Assembly: GCA_022180725.1 (NCBI GenBank) | Contig: BQMO01000014.1 | Span: 186,001-250,000, forward strand | Reading direction: 5' to 3' | Source: Phycisphaerae bacterium | GTDB lineage: Bacteria > Planctomycetota > Phycisphaerae > Phycisphaerales > UBA1924 | Length of the DNA: 64,000 nucleotides | Shown here: positions 2,161-20,662 of the stretch, in pieces | Position numbering within the stretch: position 1 is the first letter of the stretch | How the letters are laid out: each line of letters starts with the position of its first letter | Made by a program: the position numbers and the translations under genes | Notes under the pieces: generated by a model | The model's input: the letters and a program-made list of their open reading frames with translations, nothing else | Database searches by the model: none | What the model was told of the DNA's origin: nothing

Positions 2161-2570
2161 GGCGGTCTCGCGGCGCGATTGTGCTGGAGTGCATGCTGGC
2201 GCTGGCGATCTTCGTGGCCGGGGCGTTGATGATCGTTTCGGCGATGAACGGGTCCGCGGGCGCGATCGCGCGGGCCGGGCTGACGGCGCGCGCGGCGGAC
2301 CACGCACGGAACGTCATGAGCCGGATCGAGGCGGGGTTGGCCAGGCCCGAGACGCTGTCAGGCCCGATGCTGGGCGAGGACGGGGAGCCGCTGGGCCCCG
2401 AGGCGTGGGAGTTGGAGGTGCGGACGGAACCGGCGGGGCCGGCGGGGTTGACGCGGGTGATGGTGCGGGCCGTGCTTCGGCCGGAGGTGGGATCGGATCG
2501 CGAGTTGGCGTCGTTCGAGCTGGTGCAGGCGATGCGATTGACGCGGGAAGCGTCGTGGGGGGCGCGGTGA
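2157..2570 (+). CDS. gspI: Minor pseudopilin, GspI-like
   Basis: A 137-residue minor pseudopilin. The leader is only six residues ending in Gly, followed by AIVLECMLALAIF, which keeps Glu5 and matches the GspI-type LExxxALAI helix. In the family GspI forms the tip trimer with GspJ and GspK. The gene overlaps gspH by an ATGA and its TGA overlaps the GTG of gspJ. Assignment to GspI uses the helix motif, the short size and the gene order. Confidence 0.82.
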   Translation: MRRSRGAIVLECMLALAIFVAGALMIVSAMNGSAGAIARAGLTARAADHARNVMSRIEAGLARPETLSGPMLGEDGEPLGPEAWELEVRTEPAGPAGLTRVMVRAVLRPEVGSDRELASFELVQAMRLTREASWGAR

Positions 2571-3154
2571 GGGTTCGCGGATTTACCCTGGTGGAAGTGC
2601 TCGTCGCGGTCGCGCTGGTGTTGACCATCGGGGCGGGGGTGTTTTCGTTCGCGTGGGGCATGCTGGACCGACGCGATCGCGTGCTGAAGACGTGTGACGC
2701 GGACGGGATGGTGGAGGCGGTGCTGGACGAGTTGGAGCGGGGGCTGGCCGGCACGGTGGTCATTGACGGACAGGGGCGCGCCGGCCTGGAAGGTCGCGAG
2801 GATCGGTTGGTGGTGCGGAGCCGGGGCGTGGGGGCCGGATCGACGCCGACCCTGGGGGACGAGGTTGAGGTGGTGATCGAGTTTGACGCGGCGGGGGGCG
2901 TGCTGCGCGGGTCGCGGATGAAGGGGGCGATGGAGCCCCTGGGCCGGTTGGGGCGTCTGCGGGTGCGGTATTGGGATGGGGCGGAGTGGCTCGGGTCGTA
3001 TGACAGCGCTTCGGCGGGGCGATTGCCTGTGCTCGTGGAGGTGGGGTTCTGGATGACGCCGGCGGCGGTTGAAGAGGACAATGCGTGGGGAAGGCCGGAT
3101 CGGTCACGCGTGATCGTGGTGCCCGACGCGGAGCGCGGGGAGGGCGGGGCATGA
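2567..3154 (+). CDS. gspJ: Minor pseudopilin GspJ-like (GTG start)
   Basis: A 195-residue minor pseudopilin. Translation from GTG at 2567 gives a five-residue leader ending in Gly, then FTLVEVLVAVAL, a textbook prepilin start with Glu5. This start overlaps the gspI stop; an ATG much further upstream in the same frame would add a long non-pilin segment and is rejected. The C-terminal region (RVRYWDG, VEVGFWM) resembles the GspJ globular domain. The end overlaps gspK by ATGA. Confidence 0.85.
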   Translation: MRVRGFTLVEVLVAVALVLTIGAGVFSFAWGMLDRRDRVLKTCDADGMVEAVLDELERGLAGTVVIDGQGRAGLEGREDRLVVRSRGVGAGSTPTLGDEVEVVIEFDAAGGVLRGSRMKGAMEPLGRLGRLRVRYWDGAEWLGSYDSASAGRLPVLVEVGFWMTPAAVEEDNAWGRPDRSRVIVVPDAERGEGGA

Positions 3155-4665
3155 GGCGTTCCCCGCAACCCGTACGAACGGCGCGTGGCACGCGGCGCGG
3201 GAGCGTGCTGTACGCGGTCATGGTGGTGATCACGGTCGGGGCGTTGGCGTGCACGACGATGATCGTGCGTGCGGACGCCCACCGGACGGCGGTCCGCGCG
3301 AACCTGGAGCAGTTGCGGCTGCGCGCGATTGCGTGGTCGGGGGTTCAGGGCGTGACGTTGGAGATGGAACGACAACGAGGGACGTTGCTCGACGGCGGCG
3401 ACCCGCAGCTCACCCGCGAGTGGACGGTGTGGGAATCGGGCGGACGTCGCGGGATCGTTCGGCTGTTGCCGGTCGTGGAAGGCGGCGACGCGGTGATGCG
3501 GAGCGAGTCGGCGTGCCTGGACGTCAACCTCGCGACGGCGGGCATGCTCGCCAAACTGCCCGGGATGAGCGAGGACCTCGCGGGGCGGTTGGTCGCGGCG
3601 CGCGGCGCGGGCGGGTTGAGTTCGCCCGAATCGCTCGGCGCGGTTCCGGGATTTACGGCGGACGTGCTCGTGGGGGTGGAGGACGCAGGGCCGAAGGACG
3701 CGGGCGTGCTCGCGTACCTGACCGCGTTTGCCAGCGACGTGAATCAGCAGATGGGGCTGACGCGCGAGGGGCGGGGTCACGCGGGCACGCCGCGCGTGCA
3801 CCTCTCGCAGGGGTGGAGCCCCGAGGTGGAGAGCAGCCTCAAGGAACGAGTCAGCGTGGAAGGACTGGCCGCGGCCCGGGCGTGCCTTCAGGCGCGGGGG
3901 ATCACGACCGAGGCGGGAGTGGTGGAGGCGGTGCGGAAGGCCGGGTATGGGGCGGGGGTGAGCGGCGAGGTTCTGGATGTGCTGACGGTCCGGGATGATG
4001 CGTATCCGCGGGGACGGATCGACGTGAACCGGGCTTCGGCCGAGGTGCTGGCGTGTGTGCCGGGGTTTGATGCGACGTCCGCGGAGCGTGCGATGGCATC
4101 GAGGGCCGGGGTGAGCGCGGAGGATCGACGGAATCCCGCATGGCTGGTGGACGCTGGGGTGTTGACGGACGAGCAGTTCAAGGAGGCGTCGGGGTGGATC
4201 GCGACGCGGTCGCTGGTGTGGCGGGTGCGGCTCGAGGCGGTGATCGAGGCGGCCGGGGAGACCTCGGCGGACACACGGGTTGAAGGGCGGATGGAATGGG
4301 AGGCGGTGGTCGATGCGGCGGGGCCCGAGGCCCGATTGGCGTATCTTCGGGACGTGACGTTTGTTCGCCAGGCGGTGATGCGGGTCACCGAGGCGGAGGC
4401 CCGCGAGGCGGAGGCTCGCGCCCGTGAGCCGGCGGTGGCCGAAGAGCCACCCCCCCCGGCGGTGCCCCCGCCCGGACCTGGGGCGGCGGAACGGGAACAA
4501 CGCCGGCGGGCGCCGATCGGGACCTCCCGAGCGGCGGGTGTGAACCCGGAGGCGAAAGATGCGCGTTCCGAGGGCCAAGCGGTCGATCAAGAGGAGACAC
4601 GCGCACGATCGGCACCTTCGTTTCAAGACCGACGGATCGGGCGATGGCGTGGACGTGGAGTGTGA
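3151..4665 (+). CDS. gspK: Type II secretion pseudopilus tip protein GspK
   Basis: GspK is the large minor pseudopilin that caps the pseudopilus. The 504-residue product starts with a 17-residue basic leader, Gly, then SVLYAVMVVIT; the usual Glu5 is absent, as is normal for GspK. Two DVN-containing helix-hairpin-helix-like modules typical of T2SSK are visible, near residue 124 (LDVNLATA, LPGM) and near 290 (IDVNRASAEVL, VPGF). Beyond about residue 420 there is an Ala/Glu then Pro-rich low-complexity tail, longer than in most GspK proteins. ATG at 3151 overlaps the gspJ stop. Confidence 0.88.
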   Translation: MRRSPQPVRTARGTRRGSVLYAVMVVITVGALACTTMIVRADAHRTAVRANLEQLRLRAIAWSGVQGVTLEMERQRGTLLDGGDPQLTREWTVWESGGRRGIVRLLPVVEGGDAVMRSESACLDVNLATAGMLAKLPGMSEDLAGRLVAARGAGGLSSPESLGAVPGFTADVLVGVEDAGPKDAGVLAYLTAFASDVNQQMGLTREGRGHAGTPRVHLSQGWSPEVESSLKERVSVEGLAAARACLQARGITTEAGVVEAVRKAGYGAGVSGEVLDVLTVRDDAYPRGRIDVNRASAEVLACVPGFDATSAERAMASRAGVSAEDRRNPAWLVDAGVLTDEQFKEASGWIATRSLVWRVRLEAVIEAAGETSADTRVEGRMEWEAVVDAAGPEARLAYLRDVTFVRQAVMRVTEAEAREAEARAREPAVAEEPPPPAVPPPGPGAAEREQRRRAPIGTSRAAGVNPEAKDARSEGQAVDQEETRARSAPSFQDRRIGRWRGRGV

Positions 4666-4668
4666 CGG

Positions 4669-6249
4669 ATGTTGGGAGCCGGCGGCGAGTATGTGGTGAT
4701 CGAGGTCACGGGCGAGGGCCTGTGCGTCTTGGCCGCGTCGGTCGGGCTTGGAAGGATCGACATCCACGGCGTTCATTCGGCTTTGTGCCCGGCGGACCTG
4801 CCGCGGAGCGACGCGGCCGCGGTGGGTGGGTGGGTCCGGGACGAGTTGACGCGAGCGGGGCTGGTGCGTGGGCGTGCGGTGGTGGTGATCCCACGCGGTG
4901 ACGTCGTGCTGAAGACGATGGTGCTGCCACGGCCGACCGGATCGACGGCGCGGACGGGTGACATGGCGGGGATGGTTCGGCTCCAGATGCAGCGTCAGTT
5001 GACGATGTCGGCGGAGGGAGCGGCGGTTGACTATGTGGAAGTTGGAAAGACGGCGACGGCGGACGGGGTGGAGCAGGTGGAGGTTCTGGCGGGGGCGTTG
5101 ACGGGGGAACGACTGGCGTGGTGGCGAGAGATGGGGGAGGCGGCGGGGCTTCGGGTGGGGCGGATCGTGCCGCGCTGCATGGCGGTGGGGGCGATGATCG
5201 CGGAGGTTTCGGAACGGCGCGAGGGTGCGGTGGTCGGGGTGGGGATTGGGGCGCATGAAACGGATCTTGTGGTGGCCGAGGGCGGGCGCCTCGTGCTGGC
5301 CCGATCGGTGGAAGTACCTTCGCCACCCGGCGGGGGCGAGGACGCGACCTTTGCGGATCGGATGGTGGTCGAGGTGAAGCGGACGTGGACCTCGCGGCAG
5401 GGGGGGAAGTCGGGTGTCTCGCTCGAGGGATGTGTGATCGTGGGCGGTGGACGATTGCGCGAATCCGTGGCGGCGAAGGTTGGGGCGGCGCTGGGGGTGC
5501 GGGGCGAAGTCGTGTACGCACCGCCGACGGTGGTGTGGCCTGAGGCGGGGGGGGCTGGGCCGTCGCGGGGTGAAGTAGAAGTGCTGGTCGGGGTGCTGCT
5601 GGAGACGATCCGCGAGCAGGAAAGCCTGAACTTCATCCATCCCCGTCGCGTGCCGGATTCGGGCGCAAAGCGGAGGCAGTTGACGCTGGCAGGGGCGATG
5701 GCGGCGATTGTGCTCGGCGGGGTGGGCTATATCGGGGCGGACATGAGTCTGGGCGGCTTGCGAGAGGAGTTGGCGAAGGTCACGGCCCGCGAGAAGCAGT
5801 TGCAGGGGGATGTGGACGAGTTTCTGCGGGCCCATGCCCGCCTGGCGCACCTCGAACGGTGGAGATCGGCCAGGGTGGATTGGGTTCAGCACCTGGGCGC
5901 GCTGAGCGACGGCATGCCCGACCCGAGCCAGGCCACCTTGGATGAACTGTCGGCCCGTGGCGCGGGCGAGGTGACGTTTACGCCGAAGAACGCGTACCCC
6001 GGGGGCACGTGGGGGGAGCGACGCGGCGCGACGTTTGAGTTGAGCGGCAAGGCCGAGGCGCGGCAGGTGGCGTCGGACTGGCGCGACGCGTTGCTGGCGA
6101 CAGGGCTGTATGACGTGCAGACGCGCGGGGCGGACACGCCGAACCGGTTCAGTTTCTCGCTGGTGACCAGCGCGGCGTCGCCGAAGCCGGCGGCGAAGGA
6201 CGGACCGGGGAAGCCGCCCCCGGAGCGTACGAACGGGGGGGCGCCATGA
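4669..6249 (+). CDS. gspL: GspL-like inner-membrane protein (PilM-type actin fold plus PilN-type domain)
   Basis: A bitopic assembly-platform protein linking the cytoplasmic ATPase to the periplasmic parts. Residues 1-325 look like the GspL/PilM actin-like cytoplasmic domain (VVIEVT start, GAHETDLVV, a C-terminal ESLNFIHPRR linker). One membrane segment lies at about 338-360, followed by a coiled coil at about 363-392 and a PilN/GspL-type periplasmic domain. The C-terminus is Pro/Lys-rich. Length (526 aa) is more than classical GspL (about 400), consistent with a PilM-PilN fusion layout. It starts three bases after the gspK stop and overlaps the next gene by ATGA. Confidence 0.82.
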   Translation: MLGAGGEYVVIEVTGEGLCVLAASVGLGRIDIHGVHSALCPADLPRSDAAAVGGWVRDELTRAGLVRGRAVVVIPRGDVVLKTMVLPRPTGSTARTGDMAGMVRLQMQRQLTMSAEGAAVDYVEVGKTATADGVEQVEVLAGALTGERLAWWREMGEAAGLRVGRIVPRCMAVGAMIAEVSERREGAVVGVGIGAHETDLVVAEGGRLVLARSVEVPSPPGGGEDATFADRMVVEVKRTWTSRQGGKSGVSLEGCVIVGGGRLRESVAAKVGAALGVRGEVVYAPPTVVWPEAGGAGPSRGEVEVLVGVLLETIREQESLNFIHPRRVPDSGAKRRQLTLAGAMAAIVLGGVGYIGADMSLGGLREELAKVTAREKQLQGDVDEFLRAHARLAHLERWRSARVDWVQHLGALSDGMPDPSQATLDELSARGAGEVTFTPKNAYPGGTWGERRGATFELSGKAEARQVASDWRDALLATGLYDVQTRGADTPNRFSFSLVTSAASPKPAAKDGPGKPPPERTNGGAP

Positions 6250-7253
6250 ACGCGAACCCGTGGCTGGTGAGGGCGGGGGTCGGGGTGGTGATTGCCATCG
6301 CCGGGTACGTTGGCGTGGATCGGGTGTATCTGACGCCCCGGGCGGCGTTGCAGGACGAGATAACCAAGGCCTCGCAGCGAGTGGCGGGGCTGGAGAAGAC
6401 GCTGGAGGGACGTGCGGACGTTCGAGCGAGGGCGAAGGCGGCGGGGCAGTCGCTGGTGGGGGTGGAGCAGGACGAGGTGAGCGCGCGGTTCCGGGATGGA
6501 TTGGCGCGGGTGGCGGAGCAGGGCGGGCTGACGGGGATCATGGTGGAGTCGGGGCGGCCGCAGGACGAGGTGAATCCGCTGGTGAATCCGTCGGCGAAGG
6601 CGCCGGTGAAGATGCGGACGGCGATGCGGAAGCAGCCGGACTTCGCGGTGGTGCGTGGGTCGGTGAAGGGGGAAGGGACGCTGGCCCAGGCGTTGGGGGT
6701 TCTGGCGGCGCTGGAGGCGCAGGCGTGGGTCCATCGGGTGGAAGGGTTCACGATCCGCCCCGTGGGGAAGGAGCGGCAGCGGTTTGAGGTTCGGGTGGAA
6801 GTCGCGACGTTGTTTGCGCCGGACTTGGCGCGTCAGGCGGGGCCTGGGGGGCCCGAGCCGCAGGTGGCCTTGGCGTCGGCGAAGGCGGATGAGGTTGTGA
6901 AGCGGATCGCGGCGAAGAACGTGTTTGTGAAGCCGGTGGCGGTGGCGACGAATACGCCGGTCCCCGTGCGGGTTGAAGGGGCGGGCGCGGTCGAGGCGCC
7001 GACGCCACGCGCGGCGCCGTTCGCGCCGTACGAGGATTGGAAGTTGACGGGGGTGGCGCTGGGGCGTGAAGGGGCGGAGGCGTTTTTTCTGAACGTGCGG
7101 ACGGGGGAGAAGGTGACGTTGCAGCGGGGGGGCGCGGTGCTGGACGCGGTGTTCGTGGAGGGGGCGGGGGAGCGGGCGGTATTGGAGATTGGCGGGAAGC
7201 GGTTCGAGGTGAACAACGGGCAGACGTTGGCCGCGCGGCGGCCGCTCGGATGA
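6246..7253 (+). CDS. GspM/PilO-like protein fused to a GspC/PilP-type domain
   Basis: A 335-residue inner-membrane protein. It has a short cytoplasmic start, one membrane helix at about 7-25, a coiled coil at about 30-75 and a ferredoxin-like PilO/GspM-type domain at about 75-195. An Ala/Pro-rich linker follows, then at about 255-335 a small beta-rich domain (DWKLTGVAL, GGAVLDAVF, LEIGGKRFEV) that resembles the PilP or GspC homology-region fold, which in the family binds the secretin N0 domain. No separate gspC is seen, so this fusion probably supplies the contact to the giant secretin. The fusion call is inference from layout and sequence pattern. Confidence 0.72.
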   Translation: MNANPWLVRAGVGVVIAIAGYVGVDRVYLTPRAALQDEITKASQRVAGLEKTLEGRADVRARAKAAGQSLVGVEQDEVSARFRDGLARVAEQGGLTGIMVESGRPQDEVNPLVNPSAKAPVKMRTAMRKQPDFAVVRGSVKGEGTLAQALGVLAALEAQAWVHRVEGFTIRPVGKERQRFEVRVEVATLFAPDLARQAGPGGPEPQVALASAKADEVVKRIAAKNVFVKPVAVATNTPVPVRVEGAGAVEAPTPRAAPFAPYEDWKLTGVALGREGAEAFFLNVRTGEKVTLQRGGAVLDAVFVEGAGERAVLEIGGKRFEVNNGQTLAARRPLG

Positions 7254-7340
7254 GGTACACTGCACGAGGCGCGGCGGAGCGGCCGCGCGACAATCTGGTG
7301 TGTTCTGGTTTGCGGGGATTGAGCAGGCATGGAGGTTCCG
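7254..7340 (+). promoter_or_regulatory. Leader of the giant secretin gene
   Basis: An 87-base gap holding a TACACT hexamer (about 7256-7261) that fits the -10 pattern seen elsewhere in the window, and a GGAGG five bases before the ATG at 7341. The Shine-Dalgarno decides this start over the in-frame ATG twelve bases upstream. The secretin may therefore have its own promoter. Confidence 0.4.
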
Positions 7341-10300
7341 ATGCCCCGTCGTCAAAGCAGGAAGGTGTTGGTGTGCGCGTCGCTGGTCGCGGTGGCCGGG
7401 ATGCCGGTATCGGTGTGGTCGCAGGAGGCCCCGGCGCCGGCGGTGCAGCCGGAGGCGGCCCGCGGCGGCGAGAAGCCGATCTCGTTCAACTTCAAGGAGA
7501 CGCCGCTCGACCAGGTGCTGGATTTCTTTGCACGGCAGAGCGGGGTGCCGGTGATCTACGAGGCGGCGATCCCGGCGGGGTCGATCACGTTTGTGAGCGC
7601 GTCGTCGTACACGTTCGAGCAGGCGTTGTCGATTTTGAACCTGAACCTGGCGCGGTACGGGGTGCACCTGCGGCAGGAGGGTGCGTACCTGTACCTGGCG
7701 ACGCTGGCGGAATCGATGAAGCGGGCGGGGGCGGTGGGGGCGGACGCGCGGCGGCTGGAGGGGTTGACGCCGGATCGGATCGTGACGGTGAACGTGCCGC
7801 TGGACAACGCGCGGGCGGAGCAGGTGGCCGAGCAGGTGAAGGCGATGATCGGGCCGTTCGGCGGGGTGCTGGCGATCCCCGCGCAGAACATGCTGGTGAT
7901 CGTGGAGAGCGTGGGGCAGGTGAAGCGGATCCGGGAGGTGATCGAGGCGATCGACTCGCGCAAGCCGGCGGACGCGGCGTTCCGGCTGTTCCCGTTGCAG
8001 TACGCGCAGTGCGACGCGGTGCTGAACGCGTTGAAGGGGCTGGTGGCGGAGCGCAGCCGGACGGTGATCGTGGACAAGGACGGCAGCCAGCGGGTGGTGC
8101 AGGACACGAACATCCAGGGGCTGAACCTGGCGGCGGACCCGCGGACGAACTCGATCGTGGCGGTGGGGCCGGAGGCGCGGATCAAGCTGGTGGGGGAGGT
8201 GATCGCGCTGCTGGACGTGCCGGAGCACGCGGTGGGGGTGGCGGCGACGGGGAGCGAAGCGGGGAGCGGGGTTGAACTGAAGACGTTCACGCTGACGGTG
8301 ATGACGGCGGACGAGGCTGCCAAGCAGGTGAACGCGTTGTTCGCGGCGATGGACCCCAAGCGGAGGCCGGTGGTGCTGCCGCTGGCGACGGCGGGGAAGG
8401 TGACGGTGATCGGGGCGAAGTCGCAGGTGGCGCAGGCGGCGATGCTGCTGGGCGAGTTGGACCCCGGGGCGGGGGCCGGCGCGGCGGATGGGGATGATCG
8501 CGTGGCGGTGCGGCTGACGCTGAAGCACGCCTCGCCGACGATGATGGAGGGGCTGGTGACGCGGCTGGGGACGCCTCGGCAGCAGCAGGTGGTGAAGGTG
8601 ACGCCGACGCCGGACGGGAAGAGCCTGCTGGTCATGGGCCCCGGGCGGGACGTGGAGCAGGTGCAGGAGTTGGTGGCGGCGCTGGACGTGCCGGCGGACA
8701 TGGACCGCGAGGTACGGGTGGTGACGATCGCGCGGGGCGAGCCCGGCGCGGTGCTCGTGCGTGCCAAGGAGTTGTACGCGCAGACGGGCAAGGGGGCACG
8801 CGAGCCGGTGACGGCGACGCTGGATGAAGGGGCGAGGACGGCGACGCTGGTGGGGAGTCGGGAGGCGCTGGCGGCGTTCGACGCGATCTTGAACACGGCG
8901 CAGGCGACGATGCCGACGGGGCAGGAGACGCGGCGGTACCAGGTGACACGGGGGACGCCGAGCGTGGTGGCGGGTCGGCTGGCGCGGCTGGCGCGGAGCC
9001 TGCTGACGCCGAGCGACGGGGGGGCGTACGTCGAGCCGGTTTTTGACCCCGTGGACGAGTTGGGGCTGCTGGTGGTTCGGGCGCAGGCGGGGCAGTTCCA
9101 GGTGCTCGACGCGCTGGTGCGGCAGTTGGACGGGGCGGAGGGCGGCGGGCGCGACGTGCGGGTGGTGAAGCTCGGGACGGCGGACGCGCGCGGGGTGCTG
9201 GAGCGGGCGAAGGGGTTGTACGCGGCGCGGACGAGCGGGATGACGCCCGAGGCGGTGGGCGAGGTCTCGGTGGAGTTCAGCGAGGGGAGCGGGGCGGTGG
9301 TGCTCTCGGGACGGTCGGCGGGGGTGCGGCTGTACGCGGAGGCGATCGCGCAGTCGCAGGAGTTGTCGCCGCCGGCGCGGACGACGCGGGTGATCGACGT
9401 GCGGAACACGACGGCGTCGCGGGTGATCGAGCCGCTGCGCGCGCTGCTGGCGTCGGCGGATCCGATCGATCCGGCGCGGAAGGTGCCGGAGGCGGCGATC
9501 CAGGTGGTGGAGCGGACCAACTCGCTGCTGGTGACGGCGGAGCCGGCGCAGCACCAGATGGTGCAGGAGTTCGTGTCGCGGCTGGACAAGGCGGACGAGA
9601 CGACGCTGCCGCCGATGAAGTTGATCCAGTTGCGGACGGCGGACGCGGCGGGCGTGGCGGGGATGCTGAACGAGCAGTACGGGAAGCGGTCGCAGGCGGA
9701 GCGGCTGGCCAAGCCTGTGGAGGTGCGGTTTGACGCGGGGACGAACACGCTGATCGTGTCGGCGCACGAGGATTTGTTCGGGGAGATACGCGGGTTCGTG
9801 GAGGAGTTGAACAAGGACAAGCGGGAGGCGCCGGACCGGGTGACGGAGTTGTTCCCGCTGAAGGTGGCGAAGGCGGTGGACGTGGCGGCGGCGATGGATC
9901 GGCTGTACCCCGAGCCGCCGATGCCGGTGGACCGGAACGGGCGGCCGACGCCGTGGCTGCGGAAGCCGAAGGACGTGTTCGTGTCGGCGGAGGCGACGAG
10001 CAACTCGCTGATCATTGACGCATCGCCGGACCGGATGGAATCGCTGAAGCAGTTGGCGGAGAAGTTGGACCGGGTGGAGTTGCCGCCGCGGGCGGAGTTG
10101 CGGACGTACCGGGTGCCGCCGCAGAGTCTGGAGGCGGTGACGCGGACGCTGACGAGCATGGCGTCGCGGGGCGTGATGACGGAGCCCGCGCAGCCGGGCA
10201 AGCAGCCGGTGTCGACGCTGTTCGAGCCGGAGCCCAAGAGCGGGACGCTGATCGTGGCGGGGGACGCCAAGACGTTCGAGACGGTGGAGCAGTTGCTGAA

Positions 10301-13300
10301 GGATCTGAGCCTGGTGCCGGTGGAGAAGACGTTGCGGGTGTTCCCGATCGCGAACGAGAAGGCGGGCGTGGTGCGGGACCGGGCGCTGGCGATCTACCAG
10401 TCGCAGGTGGCGCAGGTGCCGAACGCGAACCCGATCGAGGTGACGGCGGACGAGCGGGCGAACGCGCTGATGGTGGTGGCGGATGGGGAGGGGATGGCGC
10501 GGTTCGCGAAGGTGATGGAGGAGTTGTCGCGGCAGATCGGGCCGGCGCGTGAGGTTCGGCTGATTGACTTGAAGGTGGCGAAAGCGGCGGAGGTGGTGGA
10601 GTTTCTGCGAGACCTTGTGCATTCGAGCGAGTCGTTCAACGTGCGGGGGGGTTCGGAGCCGGTGTTCGAGGTGATCGAGTCGACGAACCAGATCATGGCG
10701 GCGGCGCAGCCGATGCAGTTTCTGATCATCGAGGCGCTCGCGCGGAACCTGGACAGCAAGCAGGGCGGGCAGCGGCCGCCGATGCGGATCCTGAAGTTGC
10801 GGTCGACGGACGCGGGGAACCTGGCGGCGGTGCTGCAGCGGTCGTACGACGCGCGGACGCCGGAGGAGCGTGGTCGCAAGCCGGTGACGGTGGAGGCGGA
10901 CGCGGCGACGAACACGCTGATCGTGTCGGCGCACACGGACGTGCTGCCGGAGGTCGAGGCGATCGTGGCGCAGTTGAACGAGGCGGAGCGTGAGGACGCG
11001 TCGGGGCGGGAGATCCGGATCTTCCCGCTGAAGGTGGCGCGGGCGGAGGAGTTGGCGCAGACGCTGGACCAGATGTATCCGGAGCCGCCGGTGCCGCTGG
11101 ACCCGCGGACTCGGCAGCCGAGGCCCGACCTGAAACCGGCGCGGGAGGTGGTGGTTCGCGCGGACCGTGCGACGAACGCGCTGATCGTGGATGCGCCCGG
11201 GGCGAGGCTGGCGGGGTTCGAGCAGTTGGTGAAGAGCCTGGACCAGGCGAAACTGGCGGACAACGTGGCGCTGCGGACGTATCACGTGGAGCGGGCGGAC
11301 CTGCCGGGGCTGACGGCGACGCTGAAGAACCTGGCGGCGACGGGTTCGTTGGGGAACAAGAGCACGACGGCGCCGGTGCAGGTGTCGAGCGACCTGCCGA
11401 CGCGGACGCTGCTGGTGAGCGGGCCGGCGGAGGTGTTCGCGGCGGTGGAGGAAGTGCTGGCGAAACTGGACGGGGTGGCGGACCAGGCGCCGACGGACAT
11501 GAAGTTGTACGCGCTGGTGAGCGCGAGCGCGGAGCGGATCTCGCCGCTGGTGGAGCGGGTGCTGTCGAGCCGCGCGAAGGAGATGCGGCAGGCGCAGGGC
11601 AAGGCCCCGCGCGAGGGCGAGCGGCTGGTGGAGGTGACGGCGGACGCGGCGAGCAACACGCTGATCGTGTCGGCGCCTTCGGCGGTGCTGACCATCGCGG
11701 ACGGGGTGGTGCGGGCGCTGGATCAACAGTCCGTGTCCAGCGCGGTCGAGGTCCGGGTGTTCCGGCTGAGCAAGGGCGAAGCGCCGAGCGTGGCGACGGC
11801 GATGGTGTCGGCGCTGAAGGCGCAGGACCGCCCCGGCACGACGGCGGCGACGGTGACCCCGGAGCCGGCGAGCAACACGGTGGTGGTGGTGGGCACGGCG
11901 GAGCAGTTGGAACGCGCGGCGAAACTCGTCGAGTCGATGGACGCGGCGGTGGACCGGGACGGGATGGGAGTGAAGACGATCACGCTGAAGCACGCGCGGG
12001 CGGAGACGCTGGCGCCGGTGCTCGAGGGCGTGCTGATGCGGGAGTCGGCGATTGACCGGCTGCCGGAGTGGCAGCGGGCGCAGGTGCTGTCGCGCGGGGT
12101 GACGGAGCCGGCGCGGGTGAAGGTGGTGGCGGAAGCGCGGCTGAACGCGCTGGTGGTGAGCGGGCCGCGCGCGGTGATCGACATGGCGGAGCAGGTGGCG
12201 GCGGAACTCGACATGGACCCCGGGGCGGGAGGGCCGACGCGCGCGGTGCGGGTGATTCCGCTGCAGAACGCGGACGCGAGCCAGTTGGCGGCGAGTCTGG
12301 AGGGGGTGTTCAAGGACACCGCGGGGCAGGAGCCGCCGCCGGTGATCCGGGTGGAGCCGGCGAGCAACGCGCTGATCGTGCGGGCCAGCCCGGCGCAGAT
12401 GGCGACGGTGGAGGAGTTGACGAAGCAGTTGGACGCGGCGGCGGTGAACGCGAGCCGGCAGATGCGGATGATCACGGTGGACCCGTCGCGGGCGGACGCG
12501 GAGTTGCTGGCGCGGACGCTGAAGCGGCTGATCGAGCAGCAGGGCGGGGCGAAGGTGGAGGTGATTTCGGCGGAGGAGTTGCTGAAGCGGACGAAGGACG
12601 AGGGGGCGACGGAGAAGCGTCGTGGCGAGGCGAAGCCGGGCGGGTTTGGCCCCGCGGCGGCGGTGGCGATGCTGGCGTTGGCGTGGCCGGGTGAGGCGGA
12701 GGTAGAGGCGGGAGCGCCGTCGCAGCCGCCGGCGGAGGCCGAGCCGGGCGTGACGATCGCGGTGGACAGGGCGACGAACACGATCATGGTGGTAGGCTCG
12801 CCGCGGATGGCGGACCGGCTGACGGCGTTGGCGCGGGCGCTGGAGAGCCAGATGCCCGCGGAGCCGACGGGGGTGAAGATCGTGGAGTTGCCGGCGAGCG
12901 TGGACGCGGACGCGGCGGCACAGTTGGTTCGGCAGACGGTGAACCAGGTGGGACGGCTGGGCCCGGGCAACCCGGGAGGGTTCACGGGGCCGGTGAGCGT
13001 GTCGGTGGACCCGGCGGGGTCGGCGCTGATCGTGCTGAGCAACGACACGGACTTTGAGACCGTGGCGCGGGTGATCGCGGCGACGTCGCGCGGGGCGGCG
13101 GGTGGGAAGGTGACGGTGAAGGTGTACCCGCTGACGACGATCAGCGCGGCGAAGGCGATGCAGACGGTGCAGGACCTGTTCAGCCCGACGCCGCGGGGCG
13201 CACAGGCGCGGCGTGTGCGTGACGTGGAGATCACGCTGGCGGGGCCGGAGGGGCCGGTGACGGGGCGGATCGACCCGAGCCACGTGCGGATGACGAGCGA

Positions 13301-16300
13301 CCCGGGCGGGTCGGGGCTGATCGTGGCGGCACCGGACGAGGCGATCGCGGTGATCGACCGGCTGATCGAGACGATTGACCAGACGCCGGTGACGGATCGG
13401 CTGGCGATTCGGCGGTACGAGGTGAAGAACGCGAAGGCGGACGACCTGTCGCGGATGATGCAGTCGCTGCTGGACGCGCAGCGGCAGGGGGCGGGGGATG
13501 CGGCGGCGGCGCGGATCGTGGCGGACGTACGGACGAACTCGCTGCTGGTGACGGCGAGCGAGGCGCAGCATCGGGACGTGGCGCGGCTGCTGGGGCAGGC
13601 GGACGTCGCGATGACGCGCGGTGATGAGGCGTTGGCGATCATCACGCTGCGGCAGGCGACGCCGAGCACGGTGCGGCGGGTGGTGGACGAGGTGCTGATC
13701 GCGAAGGACCCGGCGCGGAAGGACCGTATCCAGATTTCGGCGGAGGACGGGTCGAGCGTGCTGGTGGTTCGGGCGGGGAAGGAGGACCTGGCGGAGGTTC
13801 GCGCGATCGTGGCGCAGGTGGACCAGGCGGAGACGGGCGGGCTGCCGGTGCGGTCGATCAAGCTGGAGCGGGCGGACGCGGGGGCGGTGGCGAGCAGCCT
13901 GCAGCAGTTCTTTCGAGAGCGTGCGGGCGGGCGGGCCGGGGCGCGCGGGGTGAATCGCGTGGCCGTGGTGGGGGACAAGCGGACGGGGACGCTGATCGTG
14001 TCGGCGGGGGACGAGGACTTCGCGCAGGTGCAGGAACTGGTGCGGACGTTTGATACGCCCGCGCCGGCGCAGGACCTTGTGTTCAAGGTGGTGCAACTGA
14101 AGAACGCGCGGGTGAGCGAGGTGGCGAGCACGATCAAGACGATCGTGGACGAGATGCGGTGGGAGACGATGTTCGGCCCGCAGGGGCAGGACCGGGTGGA
14201 GGTTCGCGTCGAGACGAACGCGCGGACGAACAGCGTGGTGCTGGTGGGACGCGGCGAGGCGATCGCGACGGCGGAGCGGGTGATCCAGGCGCTGGACCTG
14301 CCGGACGAAGCACGGGCGGCGCTCACGATCAGAAGCGTGAAGGTGAAGAGCGCGGACGTGACGGCGTTGCGGACGGTGCTGCAGCGGGCGTTCGTGACGC
14401 CGGGGTGGAGCAGTTGGCGCGGGCCGGACCCCGAGGCGCTGACGATCGAGATCGATCGGGCGCAGCGGAGCCTGATCCTGGTGGGGAAGGCGGAGCGGGT
14501 AAACCAGGCGGCGGCGTATGTCGCCGAACTGGACTCCGGGCCTGACGGCGCGGCTGGACGGGTCGAGGCCGTGACCTTGCTGCACGCGCGGGCGGACCGG
14601 GCGGCTTCGTCGCTGCGGCAGTTCTTCGCGGATCGGGCGCGGGCACAGGGAGTTGAGTCGACGAGCGTGAGCGTGATCGGCTCGACCGACGGGAACGTGC
14701 TGATCGCATCGGGCGACGAGGAGAATCTGAAGACGTTCCGCGACCTGGTGGCGCAGATGGACCAGCCCGACGGCGGGAAGGACCGGCGGATCGAGGTGGT
14801 GGTGCTGCAGAACGCGGTGGCGAACGACGTGGCGAACTCGCTGCGGACGATGTTCTCTCGCGGGACGCGCGAGGACGAGCGGGTGGCGATCACGCCGCAG
14901 CCCTCGACGAACTCGGTGATCGTCTCGGCGCCGGCGGGGACGTACCCCGAGGTGCTGGCGCTGCTGAAGCAGTTGGACGCGGCGCCGCGCGCGGAGGAGG
15001 CGAACATCGAGACGGTGGCGCTGACGAGCGCGCGGGCGCAGGACGTGGCGACGGCGCTGAAGGGGGCGCTCCCGCCGACGGTGAAGGTGACGGTGACCCC
15101 CGTCGTGAGGAGCAACTCGCTGCTGCTGACGGGGTCGAAGGAAGCCATCGCGATCGTGTTGGACCAGATCAAGAAGATTGACACGGAGCCGGTGCGGAGC
15201 GGGTTGACGTTCCGACGGTTCCGGCTGGATGCGGCGGACCCGTCGGACGTGTCGTACACGCTGGAGCAGATGCTGCGGGCGAGGCCGCGCACGGCGACGG
15301 AGCCGACGGCGAGCATTGATTACAACCGCAACGACGGGACGGTGACGGTGTACGCGCCGGCGGACCAGATCGAGGAGATCGAGAAGATCATCCGGGAACT
15401 GGACCAGAAGCCGAGCGAAGAGCGGACGACGGAGTTCATCAAGCTGCAGTACGCGAACGCGACGCAGGCGGCCAACGCGCTTCGGGTGTTCTACGGGCGC
15501 GGGGCGGCGGAGGCGGGGAGCACGGCGGCGCGGAACGTGACGATTCTGCCCGATGCGTTGTCGAACTCGCTGGTGATCCGGGCGGACAAGTCGCAGTGGG
15601 ATGGAATCCGGGCGCTGCTGACGAAACTGGACACGAAGGAGTACGACACGACGCGGCAGTTGGCGGTGATCGCGCTGGTGCACGCGGACGCGGCGAGCGT
15701 GGCGCGAGCGCTGAACGAGGGGCTGCGCGCGCCGCTGGAGGAACAGTTGCGGCAGGCGCAGGTGCGCGACGCGCGGGCGCGGCAGGGGCAGCCGCAGCGC
15801 CCGAACGACACGCGGGGCGAGGTCAATGTGCTGATCGACGCGGAGGGCGTGCCGACCGTCTCGGCGGAGGTTCAGACCAACTCGCTGATCGTGTTCGCGG
15901 GGGGGAAGGAACTGGAGCGGATCCGCGACATCGTGCGGCAGTTGGACGTGGCGGGGTTCGCCGACATGCCGGCCCCGCGGATCATCGCGCTGAAGAACGG
16001 CAAGCCGTCGGCGGTGGCGAACACGATCCGCGAGTTGTACCTGAACCGGCTCGAGCGGGTCAACGGCCCGCGGGCGGTGGTGATTCTGGGGGATGACACG
16101 AGCGGGGCGCTCATCGTGCGTGCGGACGAGGAGAAGTTCGCGCAGATCAAGGCGCTGGCGGCGACGCTGGAGCAGCAGGGAGAGATCGGGCGCGTGTCGC
16201 CGCACGTGGTGCGGCTGAAGAATGTCGCGGCCGGTCGCTTGCGGGCGACGCTGCTGGCGACGTTCAGCGAGACCGCGAAGAGTCAGGGCGAAACGCTGGC

Positions 16301-19300
16301 GATCGAGGTGGATCGGGCGAGCAACACGCTGGTGGTGGCGTGCAGCACGCGGCTGCTGGAGGAGATCCGGCGGGTGGTGGAGGAACTGGACCAGCCGGCG
16401 TTCGGGACGTCGCCCGACGGGACGGGCGCGGGGCTGGTGGGGCAGAGCGTGACGATCGTGGACGTGACGAACAACGACCCGGCGGACATCAAGAAAATCC
16501 TCGACGACATGGGGCTGACCCGTCCGACGCCGGCGGATCGGCCGGGGGTGGTGAGCGAGCCGGTGACGATCAGCCTGATGACGACACGGCGGGCGCTGGC
16601 GGTGGTGGGGGCGCCGGGCGACGGGCGCGCGGTGGAGGCGCTGGTGAAGGCGCTGGACGCGGCGCCGATGGATGCGCAGCAGCAGGTGGTGGTGGTGCCG
16701 CTGAAGATGGCGACCGCGGCGACGCTGGCCACGACGATCAACGCGATGCTGACGGTAGACGACCCGGCGAGCGGGCGATCGGGCCCGGCGAAGGCGCTGA
16801 CGGAGCAGATCCGCCGGCTGCAACTGGTGAAGGCGGGGGTGAACCAGCCGGCCACGCAGGTGGACCTTGCCAAGCCGATCAAGGTGATGGCCGACGCGGA
16901 ATCGAACGCGCTGATCATCACGTCGACGCAGGGGAATATTGATGCGATTCTCGACGTGGTGAAAGTGCTGGACACGCTTCCGACGGGGGAGGCGGTGGTG
17001 ATGCGCATCTTCCCGCTGGAGAACGCCAGCGCGGTGCGGGTGAAGAGCGTGGTGGAGGAGTTGTTCCGCCAGGGCGAGGAGTTGCGACGGATTCCGGGGA
17101 CGAGGCGGCAGGGGTTGCCGCCGACGGCGACGGGGCAGGCGCTGGCGGGCGAGGTGGCGATCTCGGTGGACGAGCGGACGAACACGCTGATCGCGGCGGG
17201 GCGCGAGGAGGCGGTGGCGCTGGTGGAGGTCCTGGTGAAGGACCTGGACGGCGAGCGGGTGAGCAAGTGGGTGGAGCCGGTGATCCTGACGTTGAAGCAC
17301 GCGGACGCACGGACCATGGCGACGCGGCTGAACGAGGTGCTGGTGCGCGGCTTGAGCACGACGCCCGAGGCCGCGGGGCTGCAGCGGCAGTTCGGGCGGC
17401 TGCGGCTGATGCAGGAGAACACGGCCCCGAACGGCAAGGGGGGGGATTATCTCCAGGCGGACTTGTTCGCGCCGGTGACGGGGCTGGTGATCACGGCGGA
17501 CGAGAACATGAACGCGTTGATCGTCGTGGGCACGCCGTCGAACAACGCGGTGGTGCGGGCGCTGGTGGCGCAGCTGGACGTGGAGTCGGCGTCGGCGGCG
17601 AACACGGTGCGGGTGTACCCGCTGAAGTACGCGGCGGCGGAGCGGGTGGCGGGGGTGCTGCGCGACGTGTTCCGGCAGCGCGTGGAAGCGGGCACGGACC
17701 GGTCCGAGGACCGGCTCATCGTGACGACGGACGTGCGGACGAACGCGCTGATCGTGTCGACGAGCGGGCGGAGTTTCGCGGTGGTGGAAGGGCTGCTCAA
17801 GACGCTGGACGGCGAGCAGAGCAACTTCTCGGTGGGGATGCACGTGATCCCCGTGACGAACGCGGACGTGCGGCAGTTGGCGCCGCGGATCGAGCGGCTG
17901 ATGCGGGAGCGGATCACGGCGGCGGCGCAGGTGGGGGCGGTGCGCAACCCGATGGATGCGTTCAGCATCGAGGCCGAGCCGACGAGCAACCTGCTGATCG
18001 TGGCGTGCAGCAGCGAGAACCTGGCGGTGGTGAAGGAGTTGATCGCGGCGCTGTCGGCGGACACGGAGCGTCTGGCGGCGGGGGAGCGGGTGGACCTGGT
18101 GCAGCTCGCGCGCATCCGGGCGGCGGAGGCGGCGCAGTCGGTCGAGCAGTTGTACGTGGAGAAGGAGAATCAGCGACGCGGGGCGGGGAGCGTGCGCGTG
18201 GTGCCGAATGAGCGGCTGAATGCGCTGGTCGTCAGCGGGACGGAGCAGGACCTGATCGAGGTTCGTGCGCTGGTGAAGCGGCTGGACAACGCGGAGTTCG
18301 CGCAGCGGCAGCAGATCCGGTCGATCGAGTTGCGCAGCGCGAACGCGGGGGAGGTCGTGCGGCTGGTGCAGAGCGTGCTGGCGGGCCGGCCCATGGGCGG
18401 GGGGACGGGGATCGGGGCGAGGCAGGCGACGCGGCTGCAGTTCCTGCGGGATTCGATGCGTGGCGAACTGGTGGGGCGTCGGGCCGTGCCGCCGACGGAG
18501 GCGGACTTGGACGGGGCCATCAAGGACCAGGTGACGCTGAACGCGGATGCGCGGACGAACTCGGTGTGGATCACCGCGCCCGAGGCGATGGTGACGCTGA
18601 TCTCGGAGATGGTGCGCGACATCGACGATTCGAGCGCGGGGGCGAGGCGGATCGAGAAGTTCCGGCTGCTGAACGCGGACGCGGTGCGGATGCGGAACCT
18701 GCTGCGGGACATTTTCCAGTTGCGGCAGCAGGGGGACGCGCTGGTGCTGGTGCCGTCGCCGGCGGACCCGGCACAGCCGGCGACGCCGGACGCGCCGCTG
18801 AGCGGGGTGAGCGTGACGCCGGTGCCGGACGAGCGGCAGGCGTTGTCGATCGCGGTGGACGAGCGGACGAACACGCTCATTGTTTCGGGCACGGAGGAGT
18901 ACCTCGGGCTGGTGCGCAAGGTGGTCACGGAACTGGACGCGGTGAGCGCGAACGAGCGGGAGCGGCGCGTGTACCAGTTGCGCAACGCGAAGGCCAAGGA
19001 GATCGAGACGACGCTGAAGTCGTACTTCCAGGGCGAGGCGGACAAGGAGCGGCTGACGCTGGGCACGGAGCGCGTCGGCTCGCTGATGCGGCGGCTTGAG
19101 GAGGAGGTGACGGTGGTCGGCGACGAGTCGAGCAACAAGCTGGTGATCTCGACCTCGCCGCGGTACATGGACACGGTGCTGAAGATCGTGAACGAACTCG
19201 ACCAGACGCCGCCGCAGGTGATGATCCAGGTGCTGCTGGCGGAGGTGACGGTGGACTCGGGCGAGCAGTGGGGGATGGACGCGAAGGCGGGGCCGTTCGG

Positions 19301-20159
19301 CGGCGACAAGTTGACGATCGGGCACACGGCGCAGGGGGTCGGCGTGGCGACGGCGCTGGGGGTGCCGAACCTGTCGGTGACGAGCGCGGACTTCGGGGTG
19401 CTGATCCGGGCGCTGGAGTTGCAGGGCAAGTTGGAGATCCTGAGCAACCCGCAGGTGCTGGCGAACAACAACAAGAAGGCGACGATCAAGGTGGTGGACG
19501 ACATCGGGCTGGCGGGACAGACGCAGCGCGGGTTCGGGTCGGACACGATCGTGTCGACGGTGGAGCGGCAGGACGTGGGGATCATCCTGAACGTGACGCC
19601 GGCGATCTCGGCGGACGGGTTCGTGCGGATGGAGATCTCGCCGGAAATTTCCTCGCTGACGACACGGACGACGCAGATCAACCGGGACCAGACGGCGCCG
19701 ATCATCACGAAGCGCACGGTCGATACGGTGGTGACCGTGAAGGACGGGCAGAGCGTGGTGATCGGCGGGCTGATCCAGACGACGGATGAATCACGCCGGA
19801 CGAAAGTGCCGCTGCTGGGCGACATTCCGATCCTGGGGCTGCCGTTCCGGACGAAGCAGAACTCGATGAACAAGACGGAGTTGCTGGTAATCCTGACGCC
19901 GCGGGTGATCGCGAACGACACGCCCGACGCCGAGGCGGCGGTGCGGGACGTGACCGATCAGCAGGTGGATCGACTCGACGATCCGACGCGGATCGAGGAG
20001 TTCCTGGAGCGGATCCGGCTCGAGGTTCAGCAGCAGAAGGCGAAGCACGGGCACGCCTCCCCGCGGCTGGAGCCGGCGAACACCGGCACGCTGATCGATG
20101 ATGCGGAGGAGGCGCCGACCGCGCCGGCGGCTGAGCCGAAGGGAGCTGAGCCGCGATGA
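7341..20159 (+). CDS. gspD: Giant type II secretin (GspD) with about 46 N1-type modules
   Basis: Outer-membrane secretin of the type II secretion system, 4272 residues; ordinary GspD is about 650-750. The order is: signal peptide (1-27, cleavage after VWSQ or nearby), an N0 domain at about 47-120 (ISFNFKETPLDQVLDFF), then about 46 secretin_N modules from about 146 to 3958 averaging 83 residues. Each has a strand like VRVFPLKNA, a helix, and a TNTLIVSA-type strand before a helix ending in LD. One secretin core follows at about 3959-4190 (VMIQVLLAEVTV, ILSNPQVLANNNKK, GQSVVIGGLIQ, PLLGDIPILG) and a charged tail of about 80 residues. The frame is unbroken for 12.8 kb, and the modules differ enough that assembly error is unlikely. 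GGAGG before 7341 fixes the start. Its TGA overlaps the lipoprotein gene. Confidence 0.93.
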   Translation: MPRRQSRKVLVCASLVAVAGMPVSVWSQEAPAPAVQPEAARGGEKPISFNFKETPLDQVLDFFARQSGVPVIYEAAIPAGSITFVSASSYTFEQALSILNLNLARYGVHLRQEGAYLYLATLAESMKRAGAVGADARRLEGLTPDRIVTVNVPLDNARAEQVAEQVKAMIGPFGGVLAIPAQNMLVIVESVGQVKRIREVIEAIDSRKPADAAFRLFPLQYAQCDAVLNALKGLVAERSRTVIVDKDGSQRVVQDTNIQGLNLAADPRTNSIVAVGPEARIKLVGEVIALLDVPEHAVGVAATGSEAGSGVELKTFTLTVMTADEAAKQVNALFAAMDPKRRPVVLPLATAGKVTVIGAKSQVAQAAMLLGELDPGAGAGAADGDDRVAVRLTLKHASPTMMEGLVTRLGTPRQQQVVKVTPTPDGKSLLVMGPGRDVEQVQELVAALDVPADMDREVRVVTIARGEPGAVLVRAKELYAQTGKGAREPVTATLDEGARTATLVGSREALAAFDAILNTAQATMPTGQETRRYQVTRGTPSVVAGRLARLARSLLTPSDGGAYVEPVFDPVDELGLLVVRAQAGQFQVLDALVRQLDGAEGGGRDVRVVKLGTADARGVLERAKGLYAARTSGMTPEAVGEVSVEFSEGSGAVVLSGRSAGVRLYAEAIAQSQELSPPARTTRVIDVRNTTASRVIEPLRALLASADPIDPARKVPEAAIQVVERTNSLLVTAEPAQHQMVQEFVSRLDKADETTLPPMKLIQLRTADAAGVAGMLNEQYGKRSQAERLAKPVEVRFDAGTNTLIVSAHEDLFGEIRGFVEELNKDKREAPDRVTELFPLKVAKAVDVAAAMDRLYPEPPMPVDRNGRPTPWLRKPKDVFVSAEATSNSLIIDASPDRMESLKQLAEKLDRVELPPRAELRTYRVPPQSLEAVTRTLTSMASRGVMTEPAQPGKQPVSTLFEPEPKSGTLIVAGDAKTFETVEQLLKDLSLVPVEKTLRVFPIANEKAGVVRDRALAIYQSQVAQVPNANPIEVTADERANALMVVADGEGMARFAKVMEELSRQIGPAREVRLIDLKVAKAAEVVEFLRDLVHSSESFNVRGGSEPVFEVIESTNQIMAAAQPMQFLIIEALARNLDSKQGGQRPPMRILKLRSTDAGNLAAVLQRSYDARTPEERGRKPVTVEADAATNTLIVSAHTDVLPEVEAIVAQLNEAEREDASGREIRIFPLKVARAEELAQTLDQMYPEPPVPLDPRTRQPRPDLKPAREVVVRADRATNALIVDAPGARLAGFEQLVKSLDQAKLADNVALRTYHVERADLPGLTATLKNLAATGSLGNKSTTAPVQVSSDLPTRTLLVSGPAEVFAAVEEVLAKLDGVADQAPTDMKLYALVSASAERISPLVERVLSSRAKEMRQAQGKAPREGERLVEVTADAASNTLIVSAPSAVLTIADGVVRALDQQSVSSAVEVRVFRLSKGEAPSVATAMVSALKAQDRPGTTAATVTPEPASNTVVVVGTAEQLERAAKLVESMDAAVDRDGMGVKTITLKHARAETLAPVLEGVLMRESAIDRLPEWQRAQVLSRGVTEPARVKVVAEARLNALVVSGPRAVIDMAEQVAAELDMDPGAGGPTRAVRVIPLQNADASQLAASLEGVFKDTAGQEPPPVIRVEPASNALIVRASPAQMATVEELTKQLDAAAVNASRQMRMITVDPSRADAELLARTLKRLIEQQGGAKVEVISAEELLKRTKDEGATEKRRGEAKPGGFGPAAAVAMLALAWPGEAEVEAGAPSQPPAEAEPGVTIAVDRATNTIMVVGSPRMADRLTALARALESQMPAEPTGVKIVELPASVDADAAAQLVRQTVNQVGRLGPGNPGGFTGPVSVSVDPAGSALIVLSNDTDFETVARVIAATSRGAAGGKVTVKVYPLTTISAAKAMQTVQDLFSPTPRGAQARRVRDVEITLAGPEGPVTGRIDPSHVRMTSDPGGSGLIVAAPDEAIAVIDRLIETIDQTPVTDRLAIRRYEVKNAKADDLSRMMQSLLDAQRQGAGDAAAARIVADVRTNSLLVTASEAQHRDVARLLGQADVAMTRGDEALAIITLRQATPSTVRRVVDEVLIAKDPARKDRIQISAEDGSSVLVVRAGKEDLAEVRAIVAQVDQAETGGLPVRSIKLERADAGAVASSLQQFFRERAGGRAGARGVNRVAVVGDKRTGTLIVSAGDEDFAQVQELVRTFDTPAPAQDLVFKVVQLKNARVSEVASTIKTIVDEMRWETMFGPQGQDRVEVRVETNARTNSVVLVGRGEAIATAERVIQALDLPDEARAALTIRSVKVKSADVTALRTVLQRAFVTPGWSSWRGPDPEALTIEIDRAQRSLILVGKAERVNQAAAYVAELDSGPDGAAGRVEAVTLLHARADRAASSLRQFFADRARAQGVESTSVSVIGSTDGNVLIASGDEENLKTFRDLVAQMDQPDGGKDRRIEVVVLQNAVANDVANSLRTMFSRGTREDERVAITPQPSTNSVIVSAPAGTYPEVLALLKQLDAAPRAEEANIETVALTSARAQDVATALKGALPPTVKVTVTPVVRSNSLLLTGSKEAIAIVLDQIKKIDTEPVRSGLTFRRFRLDAADPSDVSYTLEQMLRARPRTATEPTASIDYNRNDGTVTVYAPADQIEEIEKIIRELDQKPSEERTTEFIKLQYANATQAANALRVFYGRGAAEAGSTAARNVTILPDALSNSLVIRADKSQWDGIRALLTKLDTKEYDTTRQLAVIALVHADAASVARALNEGLRAPLEEQLRQAQVRDARARQGQPQRPNDTRGEVNVLIDAEGVPTVSAEVQTNSLIVFAGGKELERIRDIVRQLDVAGFADMPAPRIIALKNGKPSAVANTIRELYLNRLERVNGPRAVVILGDDTSGALIVRADEEKFAQIKALAATLEQQGEIGRVSPHVVRLKNVAAGRLRATLLATFSETAKSQGETLAIEVDRASNTLVVACSTRLLEEIRRVVEELDQPAFGTSPDGTGAGLVGQSVTIVDVTNNDPADIKKILDDMGLTRPTPADRPGVVSEPVTISLMTTRRALAVVGAPGDGRAVEALVKALDAAPMDAQQQVVVVPLKMATAATLATTINAMLTVDDPASGRSGPAKALTEQIRRLQLVKAGVNQPATQVDLAKPIKVMADAESNALIITSTQGNIDAILDVVKVLDTLPTGEAVVMRIFPLENASAVRVKSVVEELFRQGEELRRIPGTRRQGLPPTATGQALAGEVAISVDERTNTLIAAGREEAVALVEVLVKDLDGERVSKWVEPVILTLKHADARTMATRLNEVLVRGLSTTPEAAGLQRQFGRLRLMQENTAPNGKGGDYLQADLFAPVTGLVITADENMNALIVVGTPSNNAVVRALVAQLDVESASAANTVRVYPLKYAAAERVAGVLRDVFRQRVEAGTDRSEDRLIVTTDVRTNALIVSTSGRSFAVVEGLLKTLDGEQSNFSVGMHVIPVTNADVRQLAPRIERLMRERITAAAQVGAVRNPMDAFSIEAEPTSNLLIVACSSENLAVVKELIAALSADTERLAAGERVDLVQLARIRAAEAAQSVEQLYVEKENQRRGAGSVRVVPNERLNALVVSGTEQDLIEVRALVKRLDNAEFAQRQQIRSIELRSANAGEVVRLVQSVLAGRPMGGGTGIGARQATRLQFLRDSMRGELVGRRAVPPTEADLDGAIKDQVTLNADARTNSVWITAPEAMVTLISEMVRDIDDSSAGARRIEKFRLLNADAVRMRNLLRDIFQLRQQGDALVLVPSPADPAQPATPDAPLSGVSVTPVPDERQALSIAVDERTNTLIVSGTEEYLGLVRKVVTELDAVSANERERRVYQLRNAKAKEIETTLKSYFQGEADKERLTLGTERVGSLMRRLEEEVTVVGDESSNKLVISTSPRYMDTVLKIVNELDQTPPQVMIQVLLAEVTVDSGEQWGMDAKAGPFGGDKLTIGHTAQGVGVATALGVPNLSVTSADFGVLIRALELQGKLEILSNPQVLANNNKKATIKVVDDIGLAGQTQRGFGSDTIVSTVERQDVGIILNVTPAISADGFVRMEISPEISSLTTRTTQINRDQTAPIITKRTVDTVVTVKDGQSVVIGGLIQTTDESRRTKVPLLGDIPILGLPFRTKQNSMNKTELLVILTPRVIANDTPDAEAAVRDVTDQQVDRLDDPTRIEEFLERIRLEVQQQKAKHGHASPRLEPANTGTLIDDAEEAPTAPAAEPKGAEPR
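8922..10091 (+). repeat. Five-module higher-order repeat, copy A (390 residues)
   Basis: Modules 6-10 of the secretin. They align one-to-one with modules 11-15 immediately downstream, and the two blocks have the same length, 1170 bases. The best marker is module 10, which carries an unusual YPEPPMPVD insert matched by YPEPPVPLD in module 15. Modules 9 and 14 share KPV, the string TNTLIVSAH and a following LN. Confidence 0.75.
10092..11261 (+). repeat. Five-module higher-order repeat, copy B (390 residues)
   Basis: Modules 11-15, directly abutting copy A and of identical length. The following stretch (11262-12455, modules 16-20, 398 residues) starts with LRTYHV, close to the LRTYRV that opens copy B, so a third, more diverged copy is likely. 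Confidence 0.72.
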
Positions 20160-20662
20160 GGCACGCGTGGGCTTTTCTCGGGGGCGTGTCGCTCGTTCTC
20201 GCCGCGGCGGGGTGCGCGGCGACGTCTGCACCGCGCGGTCCGAAGAAGCCGCCACCCTCGGGCGTGGTGCCGACGCAGATCGTGACCTCGATCGGCCCGT
20301 TCGACGACACCGACGCGAACGGGTATCCCGATTCGGCGACGGTGAGCGTGTACATTTTCTCGGATGCGTACCCGGAGGCGTCGATCATGCTCCCGGCGAC
20401 GCTGACGTTTCGTCTGCGGGGCAAGTCGGGAACCGTGCTGCGCGAGTGGGACTTTTCATCGGAACAGACGGCGGGGCTGGTGCGGCGGGCGCCGGCGGGG
20501 CCGTGCTACGTGGTGCGGCTGAGCCTGCTGGATACCGAGGCGGGGGACGAGGTGCCCGAATCGCGTGCCGATCTGAGCGTGACGTACCGGACGCTGACGG
20601 GGACGACCCTTGTCTCGGTGCCCGAGCCGGTACGAGTCGGCCGAGCCGGCCGCTCGCCCTGA
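20156..20662 (+). CDS. Lipoprotein of unknown function, candidate secretin partner
   Basis: A 168-residue lipoprotein that I do not recognise. The signal peptide ends in a lipobox LAAAGC with Cys20; Ala at +2 predicts outer-membrane sorting by the usual rule. The mature part has a Pro/Lys linker and then a beta-rich domain (VSVYIFSDAYPE, LTFRLRGKSGTVL, VRLSLLD, LSVTYRTLTGTTL). The start overlaps the secretin stop (ATGA), so it is translationally coupled to it. A role as a pilotin or secretin-stabilising lipoprotein is inferred from position and lipidation only; it does not look like a known pilotin family. Confidence 0.75.
   Translation: MRHAWAFLGGVSLVLAAAGCAATSAPRGPKKPPPSGVVPTQIVTSIGPFDDTDANGYPDSATVSVYIFSDAYPEASIMLPATLTFRLRGKSGTVLREWDFSSEQTAGLVRRAPAGPCYVVRLSLLDTEAGDEVPESRADLSVTYRTLTGTTLVSVPEPVRVGRAGRSP

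Follow-up and report, generated by a model that had tools for sequence, protein, structure and literature searches.

A giant type II secretion system secretin with 46 Secretin_N modules in Phycisphaerae and its possible role as a long periplasmic conduit

Can a secretin with some 46 N modules be the genuine product of one gene, and what might such a protein do in the cell envelope? Secretins are generally treated as short gates. The stretch of DNA analysed here (the window, 64,000 nucleotides from a Phycisphaerae bacterium) contains a gene, giant gspD, at 7341..20159 (+), which is a single open frame of 4272 codons from 7341 to the stop codon at 20157–20159, with an alternative ATG at 7329. 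The original prediction of one gene for 4272 residues was thus borne out.

The encoded protein begins with a signal peptide that was read by eye in the sequence (MPRRQSRKVLVCASLVAVAGMPVSVWSQ, 7341..7424 (+), end approximate) and continues with an N0 domain (7476..7793 (+), bounds approximate), an array of Secretin_N modules (7794..19205 (+), residues 152–3955) and a single secretin core (19410..19910 (+), Pfam Secretin, PF00263, residues 4024–4190, E 3.7e-48). Modules were counted with an iterative HMM, seeded with one module of the giant protein and iterated on the same protein until converged, with a domain threshold of E 0.01. The converged modules have values from 2e-10 to 4e-23 and lie end-to-end with no unit missing, so that the "about 46" of the original prediction is exactly 46; Pfam Secretin_N reaches 1155 bits in 41 individually significant stretches. 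The N0 and the one normal core proposed earlier were also recovered. Residues 46–294 match the N0-N1-N2 structure of XcpQ (4e9j, phmmer E 1.1e-5), and the Pfam model type_II_gspD_N0 gives E 0.01, under its cut-off. At the other end, residues 3836–4197 align to N3 and core of XcpQ (phmmer against PDB, E 4e-45), and module 46 (18966..19205 (+)), which adjoins the core, is the N3 equivalent. Given this normal N0-N1-N2 start and N3-core end, the protein can be read as an ordinary GspD in which N2 and N3 are separated by about 43 additional N modules.

The NCBIfam profile for GspD (TIGR02517) scores 1142 bits against a cut-off of 351, a sum inflated by repetition, and its best stretch (residues 3760–4197) covers positions 149–593 of the 600 in the profile. 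Membership of the giant protein in the T2SS secretin GspD family is secure. Identity as PilQ was considered and rejected: the TIGR02515 score of 405 (cut-off 284) is summed over the repeats and far below that for GspD, and the gene context is that of a T2SS.

The giant gene stands last in the order F-G-H-I-J-K-L-M-D, with gspE divergent, upstream of the operon on the opposite strand and separated from it by a glutathione peroxidase gene. Three genes were assigned by family: gspF (3' part, 1..894 (+), T2SSF E 1.4e-40), which starts upstream of the window with its 5' part in L064, gspG for the major pseudopilin (1004..1501 (+), TIGR01710 above cut-off), and gspK (3205..4665 (+), T2SSK E 1.4e-6). 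The others were assigned by weak match and order. These are the minor pseudopilin genes gspH-like (1537..2160 (+), weak N_methyl and position), gspI-like (2157..2570 (+), weak XpsI/GspI match and position) and gspJ-like (2555..3154 (+), N_methyl, weak GspI/GspJ match and position), a gspL-like, PilM-like gene (4669..6249 (+), pilM E 1.3e-6 and position) and a gspM-like gene for 335 residues (6246..7253 (+), position), which is kept across giant loci. The operon order recurs at the giant loci of relatives, and no pseudopilin of the operon is unusually long. The GspM-like protein (6246–7253) is extended at its C terminus by a conserved domain of about 75 residues, and it matched nothing in Pfam or the PDB. 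The operon yielded no GspC, a system partner that binds N0 and does not define the secretin family. The C-terminal domain of the GspM-like protein looks HR-like by eye, but a fusion of GspC to GspM was discarded when profile searches gave no match. Directly after giant gspD lies a lipoprotein gene (20156..20662 (+), lipobox read by eye in the sequence), which is the next gene in most lineage-A loci as well; no Pfam family matched its product, a candidate pilotin-like partner.

The same genome carries a second T2SS (L065, G000 C21, 8468–19899) with a GspD of 812 residues; additional secretins are encoded on C1, C9 and C14. The 812-residue GspD likewise follows a gene order E-F-G-H-I-J-K-L-M and has N0, four Secretin_N modules and core; it differs in its normal length and in an additional 243-residue gene that precedes gspD.

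Within the giant array the modules are joined by linkers with a median of 10 residues (IQR 9–11) and with no long flexible gap. The same median and IQR were obtained over six giants measured, in which gaps of more than 25 residues are nearly absent, and the linkers in the 812-residue GspD are 10, 14 and 8 residues. Module 21 (12480..12845 (+), 122 residues) carries a long insertion loop that is kept in relatives, and smaller insertions occur in modules 23, 34, 38, 40, 44 and 45. The loops in modules 21, 34, 38, 40, 44 and 45 are conserved in position; most modules are without insertion. Modules 25–31 (13629..15197 (+)) were modelled by AlphaFold2 (mean pLDDT 77.7) as seven beta-alpha-beta-beta-alpha units, the N1-type fold, and all 39 of the top 39 PDB matches to this model are secretins of T2SS, T3SS and type IV pili, in agreement with the fold anticipated for the array. 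A model of modules 43–46 with the core matches full-length GspD structures (best E 1.9e-27). The pTM values of the two monomer models are low (0.42 and 0.38), and RMSDs to full-length secretins are mostly 17–45 A. The inter-domain geometry of GspD is not reproduced, and the models therefore carry little weight for or against rings.

Although modules within the array share on average only 22% identity, orthologous modules across relatives share 42–79% and correspond one-to-one and in order. Three relatives match all 46 modules in this way, with identities of 0.56–0.79 against the background of 0.22. Other genera keep the register, with losses and gains mostly of whole blocks: modules 7–12 are missing in G002 and G005 and modules 7–11 in G015, and four extra modules appear between 17 and 18. 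Farther lineages, including Verrucomicrobia, keep the order mainly across the last nine or so modules. Every module of the array is conserved, the middle as tightly as the ends. Colinear modules that differ by blocks suggest that the array expanded long ago and that each module has since been preserved individually; by their sequences the modules are not interchangeable.

These data also bear on whether the array could be a neutral or decaying repeat expansion, or a product of assembly. The giant gene is split into two or three frames in L058, L063, L127, L144 and L151, which reflects either sequencing errors or real splitting, and split frames in a few relatives (G051, G058, PNC22, L144, L151) would suit decay. 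Against it stand the old, diverged modules with their strict colinearity, dN/dS values of about 0.18 and 0.30 when giant gspD is compared with two relatives, which point to purifying selection on the module array, and frames that are intact in dozens of assemblies, single-contig ones included. A tandem-repeat artefact at the DNA level was rejected, as TRF shows no matching array and the modules average 22% identity, and an assembly artefact was rejected on 46-module orthologues in three relatives and giants in dozens of genomes. Neutral expansion or artefact is thus extremely improbable, and as a general explanation it is already refuted. An artefactual or split gene, and units that are not secretin_N, had been named beforehand as outcomes contrary to the original prediction; neither occurred. 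An antisense frame (5886–19325 (−), 4479 residues) exceeds giant gspD in length. It was rejected as a real gene since open runs at this place vary from 235 to 3191 residues in relatives and are not conserved; the frame is a mirror effect of high GC.

A search for equally long GspD proteins in relatives, as had been proposed, found giants of 30–63 modules (3109–6169 residues) in about 50 genomes examined, spread across the class Phycisphaerae and some Verrucomicrobia-labelled genomes. About half of 61 near genomes carry giants of 30–53 modules, and the best core matches among named relatives are Phycisphaerales MAGs, which marks the genome of the window as Phycisphaerales-type. The largest giant, with 6169 residues and 63 modules, comes from elsewhere in Phycisphaerae (G101, L079/L080), and giants also occur on single-contig chromosomes (G062, G090, G211 and CP070772). 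One genome (G060, L061 and L062) has two giant secretins, one of 46 modules and the other of at least 36 in a frame that runs beyond the stretch examined. Several genomes of the same family, more than 90% complete, have only 3–9 Secretin_N matches and no giant. As giants are missing in many relatives, nothing general in the cell plan demands them.

In the phylum outside Phycisphaerae most sampled secretins have 700–1500 residues and one has 2701. The latter, a secretin-like protein (L081, G430, 8774–16876), has about 20 spaced modules, and a simple motif test found no core in it. Giants are rare in Verrucomicrobia-labelled genomes (1 of 145 sampled). Those obtained have 3959–4311 residues (L160, L161, L166, L168, L172, L177 and L178) and a module lineage common to other Phycisphaerae, and horizontal transfer involving these genomes is possible. 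Contamination as their source was considered, and for one of the seven contigs (L168) the kinship of metH, about 8 kb downstream of the giant, argues against it. The L168 metH shares 54–86% identity over long matches with its own order, versus mostly 33–38% (best 53%) with Phycisphaerae, and this contig therefore looks native.

In its signal peptide, N0, N1-type modules, core and T2SS operon the giant resembles GspD, PulD and XcpQ, whereas these have three N modules after N0 and about 650 residues instead of 46 modules and 4272 residues. Medium-long secretins from other Planctomycetota (about 1200–1500 residues; 2701 in G430) are likewise extended, but they have 4–6 modules by our own model, or 20 in G430, and long inter-module gaps. 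The PilQ secretin of Thermus thermophilus offers another parallel, since it stacks extra N rings across a wide periplasm; its six rings, in a particle 350 A long, were already termed unusual (PMC5745081). It differs as a secretin of type IV pili and competence, with six rings versus about 47. XcpQ N domains form rings without the core, and N0-N1-N2 is about 90 A high with the tag subtracted (PMC5646246). No earlier description of such giant secretins was found in the open-access literature, a search that does not in itself prove novelty; within that literature the giant GspD is an extreme variant of the T2SS secretin and apparently new.

We propose that the modules of this T2SS secretin form stacked rings and so build a conduit about 140 nm long through the periplasm, a reading to which we give a probability of roughly 0.6. 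A ring-building domain of N1 type would have been multiplied to 46 copies between an N0-N1-N2 start and an N3-core end. About 12–15 chains would assemble, each module giving one subunit to one ring, and the rings would stack with the core in the outer membrane. If each ring is about 3 nm (about 30 A) high, 46 rings would give a periplasmic part of about 140 nm. Such a conduit, its lumen being the putative export path, would allow the platform in the inner membrane and the pseudopilus to work on a pore in the outer membrane across a locally very wide periplasm. Under this proposal every module holds a fixed position since its ring must match two neighbours, and both position-specific conservation and uniformly short linkers agree with a rigid stack. 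A tube of stacked rings is the leading candidate mechanism and the most economical reading of N1 folds, GspD-like linkers of about 10 residues and non-interchangeable modules. For its fullest form we see an even chance: all 46 rings would form, each in its own place, as a tube of more than 100 nm, the longest known channel and a fixed-length ruler in a locally giant periplasm of Phycisphaerae and some Verrucomicrobiota.

The periplasm of Planctomycetes can be greatly enlarged (PMC5394234), and this part of the original prediction stood. The suggested link to crateriform structures did not. Described Phycisphaeraceae lack them (PMC8882080), and the craters of Planctopirus lie at sites of contact between the inner and outer membranes, with none at invaginations (PMC5394234), both of which contradict these structures as the seat of the giant secretin. 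The normal-length T2SS in the same genome implies that the envelope must be narrow elsewhere, so that a periplasm wide throughout the cell cannot by itself explain the giant. Together with the patchy occurrence of giants, it suggests a dedicated machine sited where the periplasm is wide.

Two other readings were weighed. In the first, rings would form only from a few modules near each end, and the middle of the array would be a folded string, compressible or bundled sideways, that keeps the inner-membrane platform connected to a pore which is distant or moves. In its favour, both termini retain recognisably normal GspD ends, the monomer models lack a GspD-like rigid arrangement, and variation from 30 to 63 modules between taxa would be tolerable for a tether. 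We nevertheless consider this unlikely: linkers are uniformly short in all six giants measured, and a mere spacer would not need a middle whose order and identity are as tight as those of the ends. It is more doubtful still that the array serves chiefly as a working surface, with a series of rings or loops that would bind, sort or gate the substrate or the pseudopilus, length being a by-product. The modules are indeed not interchangeable, several bear long position-conserved insertion loops, and N-domain loops can form gates in known secretins (PMC5745081). Yet blocks of 5–6 modules are missing in close relatives, which argues that many units are dispensable, and insertions are absent from most modules.

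The N modules of this protein are about ten times more numerous than in the gates of known structure, and the conserved family of 30–63 modules would, to our knowledge, comprise the largest known secretins. If the stacked tube is true, a mechanism would be needed for export across more than 100 nm of periplasm. The giant gspD provides a sequence-level handle on the envelope architecture of Planctomycetota, and as genera differ in array length, cryotomograms would allow that length to be compared directly with envelope width.
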